A stretch of DNA of 28,161 nt, taken from positions 1-28,161 of IMG/VR virus record IMGVR_UViG_3300025896_000152. One strand, 5' to 3'. The stretch is from a virus. Made by a program: the position numbers and the translations under genes. The notes under the pieces are model-generated. The model saw nothing but the letters and a program-made list of their open reading frames with translations. It was not told the DNA's origin and ran no database searches. Positions 11,861-11,957 of this stretch are shown here, in pieces (the stretch's first letter is position 1; the number at the start of each line of letters is the position of its first letter).

Positions 11861-11957
11861 TACGCCTTGGATCGCCAAGCCCTGCTACGCATCGGTGAGC
11901 AGTGCCTCGCCACGCCTCGCTATGCCGCTCCAGGCATCGCCATGCTTGGCTGTGCCG
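11861..11957 (-). repeat. Non-coding array of about 19 degenerate pentamers, (A/G/T)GCNN
   Basis: On the minus strand, immediately after the stop of the RAMP-like gene, GC dinucleotides recur every five bases at 11955, 11950, 11945, 11940, 11935, 11925, 11920, 11915, 11910, 11905, 11900, 11890, 11885, 11880, 11875 and 11865. Slots 11930, 11895 and 11870 deviate. So 16 of 19 slots hold GC in one phase, and only one GC (11928) lies out of phase. The base before GC is G, A or T, never C. The two bases after it vary freely (AC, CA, AT, GA, CT in the first five). A period of five does not fit codon structure, and no gene covers the stretch. It sits between two hairpins and probably forms the 3' part of the upstream transcript or a separate small RNA. 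The function is unknown. Confidence 0.8.

Follow-up and report, generated by a model that had tools for sequence, protein, structure and literature searches.

A pentamer array beside a RAMP-family gene in a phage tail-gene module is probably the guide RNA of a compact VIPR system

The window analyzed here is a 28,161-nucleotide stretch, positions 1 to 28,161 of the IMG/VR virus record IMGVR_UViG_3300025896_000152, which carries tape measure, tail-chaperone and minor tail genes. Between the tail-chaperone genes and the tape measure gene lies a locus that we assign, with the strength given below, to the Viral Interference Programmable Repeat (VIPR) systems. All its parts are on the minus strand. 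A gene for a 199-residue RAMP-family protein, here termed vipr (11961–12560; start GTG at 12560 or, more likely, ATG at 12554), is followed by an array of five-base units, made up of a putative guide RNA (vrRNA) region of 17 slots (11872–11956) and a probable 3′ cap (11857–11871). The tail tape measure gene (7906–11799; PHROG tape measure families, best E 3.5e-80) stands directly downstream of the array.

From position 11956 downward, the minus strand can be read as consecutive five-base slots of the form DGC-NN, with A, G or T before GC. In register the slots are GGC-AC AGC-CA AGC-AT GGC-GA TGC-CT GGA-GC GGC-AT AGC-GA GGC-GT GGC-GA GGC-AC TGC-TC ACC-GA TGC-GT AGC-AG GGC-TT GGC-GA TCC-AA GGC-GT. 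GC occupies one fixed phase in 16 of the 19 slots, as counted in an earlier sequence-only reading of the window, and the single out-of-phase GC mentioned there lies inside the array, in GGAGC. Each unit conserves a triplet, DGC (GGY in loosened form), and leaves the next two bases free. The periodicity withstood the shuffled-sequence check proposed with that reading: in 180 copies of the window shuffled by Markov models of order 1–3, the highest score was 11 of 19, and the top phase score in the rest of the window is far below that of the array. A plus-strand frame (11895–12674) covers part of the array, and an antisense frame or a GC-rich codon bias might be held to generate it as an artefact of coding or composition. 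This frame is antisense to vipr, and we found no convincing gene over the array, in agreement with the earlier reading. Codons cannot yield a period of five, and Markov models up to order 3 fail to reproduce the array. We rejected this explanation, to which we attach next to no probability, on the grounds of the period, the shuffles and the lack of a comparable run elsewhere in the window.

At the end of the array, TCC-AA-GGC-GT has the look of a conserved 3′ cap that relatives share, and not of information slots, so the guide proper probably comprises 17 slots (11956–11872). Its NN string is AC CA AT GA CT GC AT GA GT GA AC TC GA GT AG TT GA.

The 199-residue protein belongs to phrog_4652 (E 1e-17), a PHROG of unknown function, and tblastn against annotated phages found relatives in felixounaviruses, Gordonia phages and Escherichia phage SUSP1. 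Pairwise BLAST with SUSP1 Vipr gave 24% identity over 195 residues (E 1e-13). A profile search with the window protein alone as query, SUSP1 being left out, matched the chain "SUSP1 Vipr protein" of PDB entry 36pp (E 1e-7). In a Foldseek search, the AlphaFold model (pLDDT 79) matched RAMPs of the Csm3/Cas7 type from CRISPR effector complexes (probability 1.00, TM about 0.55, best E 2.4e-6), and the glycine-rich loop GLGDFRPDCKGPFGKF is conserved in the Vipr protein. Rfam, Pfam, NCBIfam and PADLOC contained no entry matching the array RNA or the protein. On sequence evidence, the gene at 11961–12560 encodes a Vipr homologue, Vipr being the RAMP component of VIPR systems; its predicted fold is RAMP-like, as were the features that the sequence-only reading had noticed.

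VIPR is described as a phage-encoded CRISPR relative, with SUSP1 as a type specimen (PMC13142463, a 2026 preprint). According to that source, it pairs a phage RAMP protein (Vipr) with guide RNAs of alternating GGY and NN; the guide reads double-stranded DNA with one target base skipped per repeat, and this code was tested; perturbing GGY abolished silencing in SUSP1, and other VIPR types are allowed a related triplet consensus (PMC13142463). The fixed contact positions and variable information positions suggested by the sequence-only reading match this description of the guide RNA (PMC13142463). VIPR systems occur mainly in phages and proviruses, typically though not always with an accessory vap gene, and their guide RNA ends in an invariable structured tail. 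Homology to SUSP1 Vipr, a RAMP fold with a glycine-rich loop, an adjacent pentamer array with a loosened triplet and a location in a phage are all found together in the window. These data suggest, with a probability of about 90%, that the locus is a VIPR system and that the array is its single guide RNA. The kind of system is already known from PMC13142463, and the window locus is an additional member.

Like SUSP1 VIPR, the locus encodes one RAMP protein (about 20 kDa, with a glycine-rich loop) in a phage and, next to it, a putative pentamer guide RNA with a fixed triplet, free NN and a probable cap at its 3′ end. It differs in that the triplet is DGC and not strict GGY, and in that there is only one vrRNA, directly downstream of vipr and within a tail-gene module. 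In addition, the window has no recognized vap gene, its 3′ cap is unlike the SUSP1 pseudoknot tail, and its guide resembles the adjacent tape measure gene.

The arrays of relatives were examined in 12 metagenomic phage loci (L001–L012). One of them (L001; 99% best-segment identity) is near-identical to the window and has an identical array; the others are at 56 to 67% best-segment identity and, with L007 a duplicate of L008, there are 10 distinct relatives besides L001. All 10 distinct relatives, and SUSP1 as well, have GGY/NN pentamer arrays close upstream or downstream of vipr, with one to about a dozen units per locus; L003, L005 and L009 have several guides. No such array was detected in 76 control loci (613 kb) that had been fetched for other reasons. 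In the pooled arrays, G is found at position 1 of 78% of units and at position 2 of 93%, and C or T at position 3 of 94%; the NN positions include all 16 dinucleotides. Several arrays of the branch (L003, L004, L005, L007, L010 and L012) end in [A/C/T]CC-AA-GG.., which argues for the assignment of TCC-AA-GGC-GT-AGA-AA (11857–11871) as a probable cap; its final part is unlike that of the relatives (AGAAA vs. GGTTT). The expectation of the sequence-only reading, that related phages would keep the phase while the NN positions change, holds at the family level in every relative. Within the species no variation is visible, as the one near-identical relative (L001) has the same array.

These comparisons bear on a functionless origin, in which the array would be a decayed microsatellite or a GC-rich repeat made by slippage. 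The degenerate triplet, with A, G or T before GC, would suit such a history. Slippage, however, would preserve NN too, and NN varies throughout; moreover, such arrays stand beside every vipr relative, at 57–68% protein identity and with unrelated NN strings. The variable NN and the recurrence of arrays beside diverged vipr genes led us to reject this origin, which we consider very improbable.

Two further observations concern arrays elsewhere. At L006:2143–2949, upstream of vipr, short vrRNA-like units are repeated in tandem about a dozen times, each with GGATTTTAG at its end; this may be an instance of the "staggered" overlapping multi-guide arrays that PMC13142463 mentions. The isolated and culturable Gordonia phages MakoManhole, Trine and UmaThurman (L096–L098) likewise have GGY/NN arrays flanking their Vipr homologues, with many adjoining arrays in UmaThurman. 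These three phages would be convenient test systems for VIPR.

The guide was decoded with one skipped base per slot, so that the 17 slots give 34 informative bases: ACx CAx ATx GAx CTx GCx ATx GAx GTx GAx ACx TCx GAx GTx AGx TTx GAx. As codons, this reads T-[HQ]-[IM]-[DE]-L-A-[IM]-[DE]-V-[DE]-T-S-[DE]-V-[SR]-[FL]-[DE]. At a 1-base skip, the guide scores highest in the window at codons 2–18 of the tape measure gene (MANIELAIDIDSSSV...; 11746–11796, minus strand), a partial match (23 of 34 bases) that lies on the sense strand and keeps the codon phase. Other sites in the window reach at most 19 of 34 at skip 1 and, the array excepted, at most 20 at other skips. After shuffling of the slot order, a score of 23 was reached somewhere in the window by 4 of 500 guides, and in the first six codon registers by 4 of 20000. 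The tape measure start was still the sole outlier when the decoded guide was run over a 42-kb sister contig.

The own copy of the tape measure gene matches at 68%, with mismatches spread over the site and two slots wholly mismatched. Since this value resembles those of the relatives' guides against their own copies (see below), the guide may be directed against a related phage's tape measure gene. We put it at about even odds that the target is the tape measure gene start of a related, competing phage absent from the collections, and that the own copy is spared by its mismatches. The same site would also fit a mainly self-regulatory VIPR guide, whose partial pairing with the start of its own tape measure gene tunes late expression, the best own-genome site being the start of the adjacent gene, at 23 of 34. 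The spread of mismatches and the two fully mismatched slots speak against such tuning, and the better match of sibling copies than own copies among the relatives points to self-avoidance; we therefore consider self-regulation unlikely.

The relatives' guides were compared with sibling phages at several skips. At a 1-base skip, 8 of 38 guides matched at p < 0.05, with a maximum z of 5.9; at skips 0, 2 and 3 the corresponding numbers were 1, 0 and 4 guides, with maximum z of 3.1, 1.9 and 3.5. A clear excess is seen at the 1-base skip only. The matches are mostly in codon phase and lie within homologues, in sibling phages, of the genes that flank vipr: one just upstream of vipr (TGEITNEVKGYAKK, ELSAICRAVGVLTPRDSC), a helicase-like one downstream (PLKYLCNVNVLTTGFD, VVVIPTAGGK) and perhaps vipr itself. 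Where the own copy was available, it matched worse than the sibling copy (e.g. 18 vs. 25, 17 vs. 21, 17 vs. 20 and 22 vs. 24). We suggest, tentatively and at somewhat less than even odds, that the guides of this branch are drawn from sibling-phage orthologues of VIPR-flanking genes, the element being a sibling-exclusion or homing-like device. Such neighbor-gene targeting may be new, as it is absent from the main text of PMC13142463, where VIPR guides are reported against satellites, prophages and other VIPR systems. As a separate observation, the vipr gene at L006:3076 (ASSGTRAAQVG) is matched in 18 of 22 bases by the guide at L010:1310–1364, a possible case of VIPR-against-VIPR targeting; the p value is about 0.01 in one database and 0.07 in a larger one.

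The decoded guide was also searched against IMG/VR, the GTDB representatives and 385 genomes of one bacterial class. In IMG/VR, exact scans (slots 3–12, 3–10, 9–16, 1–8 and 6–13, and tape measure-like starts) returned only chance-level or unrelated sites. The scan of GTDB representatives gave 19 sites, which is chance level, and a pattern of 12 slots, allowing for 3 mismatches at most, gave no site in the 385 genomes, which belong to the class of a Sphingomonas metagenome-assembled genome. No match was obtained by tblastn of the decoded peptide or of the first 100 residues of the tape measure protein, nor in a PHROG search of the decoded peptides.

The locus might be a VIPR system with some other target, such as the exonuclease motif AIDVETSD of a phage DNA polymerase, or an element not yet recognized, its tape measure likeness being due to chance. 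The 8-slot exact search of IMG/VR gave mostly "AIDVETSDPNL" sequences, which we take to be a polymerase exonuclease-like motif, and about 1% of shuffled guides score equally in the window. The AIDVETSDPNL sites match at 18–24 of 34, however, with 16 of these bases forced by the search and the free positions near chance. No such selection lay behind the own-genome site, and neighbor-gene targeting recurs in the relatives. We regard another target as a real possibility, at distinctly less than even odds.

Several results weigh against a VIPR system aimed at a related tape measure gene. Exact GGC or GGA-free GGY is found in only 9 of the 17 slots, which is looser than in SUSP1; 8 of the 17 triplets depart from GGC, and the array is looser than those of the relatives as well. 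Because perturbing GGY abolished silencing in SUSP1, activity could by analogy be weak, or the array partly decayed. The tape measure match is imperfect and was noticed after decoding, and its p value is 0.05–0.08 in a larger, mixed sibling-phage database. The searches described above returned no close target, and the guide fits none of the tape measure starts in the nearest annotated phages, the N-termini of the nearest known tape measure proteins being different. Finally, no vap accessory gene could be assigned among the searched neighbors of vipr.

Class 1 CRISPR-Cas (the Cas7/Csm3 backbone), of which VIPR has been proposed as an ancestor-like relative, has the RAMP fold in common with the window protein; oligomerization along the guide RNA and periodically interrupted pairing would be expected in both. 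Unlike in class 1 systems, the information in the window guide is non-contiguous. No cas genes were found beside the RAMP gene, the searched neighbors being phage tail genes, a ribbon-helix-helix regulator and small open reading frames (ORFs). A CRISPR repeat-spacer arrangement was not seen in the array, which consists of contiguous pentamers with no longer unit, although no search dedicated to such repeats was run on the whole window. In its way of working only, the element can be likened to homing endonuclease-type phage elements, as the relatives' guides appear to aim at sibling homologues of their own flanking genes while the own copy is mismatched; unlike these elements, it has no nuclease and gives no evidence of copying into the target.

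Two hairpins on the minus strand flank the array. A small one, GCCGCC-TGAG-GGCGGC (11954–11969), read from the sequence and present in the fold, spans the vipr stop codon and is overlapped by the first array slot. A strong one, AGATGGGGCGGTCC-TTCG-GGGTCGCCCCATCT (11820–11851), appears in the fold of the strand downstream of the cap and may be an element of the 3′ end; it lacks a following T run and was not called as a terminator. The TCC-AA-GGC cap before it is common to the arrays of six relatives.

Around vipr, a short ORF (12557–12784, minus) with a Tat-signal-like sequence (MATYKHTTRRDVLKAAPAVVAAVG...) overlaps the vipr start. The plus strand at 12778–13244 encodes a ribbon-helix-helix regulator (12778–12972) and a small lipoprotein-like protein; these genes are apparently part of the same cargo insertion between the tail-chaperone and tape measure genes. 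Farther away in the structural module, an ORF of 614 residues (19511–21355, minus), of Gly/Ala/Ser-rich low complexity, is possibly a tail fiber or surface protein.

By analogy with SUSP1, we infer that the array would be expressed as a vrRNA along which copies of Vipr line up, the protein holding the DGC triplets. The NN pairs would then read double-stranded DNA as NNxNNxNN, one target base being skipped per slot, and binding would block transcription of the target. This target would be the tape measure start of competing related phages, the carrier's own copy being spared by its mismatches.

The locus was reached independently, from raw sequence, and would be a compact, single-guide member of VIPR with a relaxed triplet. 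If the proposed targeting is true, a gene in the neighborhood of the competitor's locus would be silenced, here the tape measure gene, which is needed for tails, while the own copy has diverged at the positions that are read. The window guide and those of the relatives together suggest a rule for natural targets, namely the neighbor genes of sibling phages, which would bear on the origin of VIPR guides and on self-avoidance.
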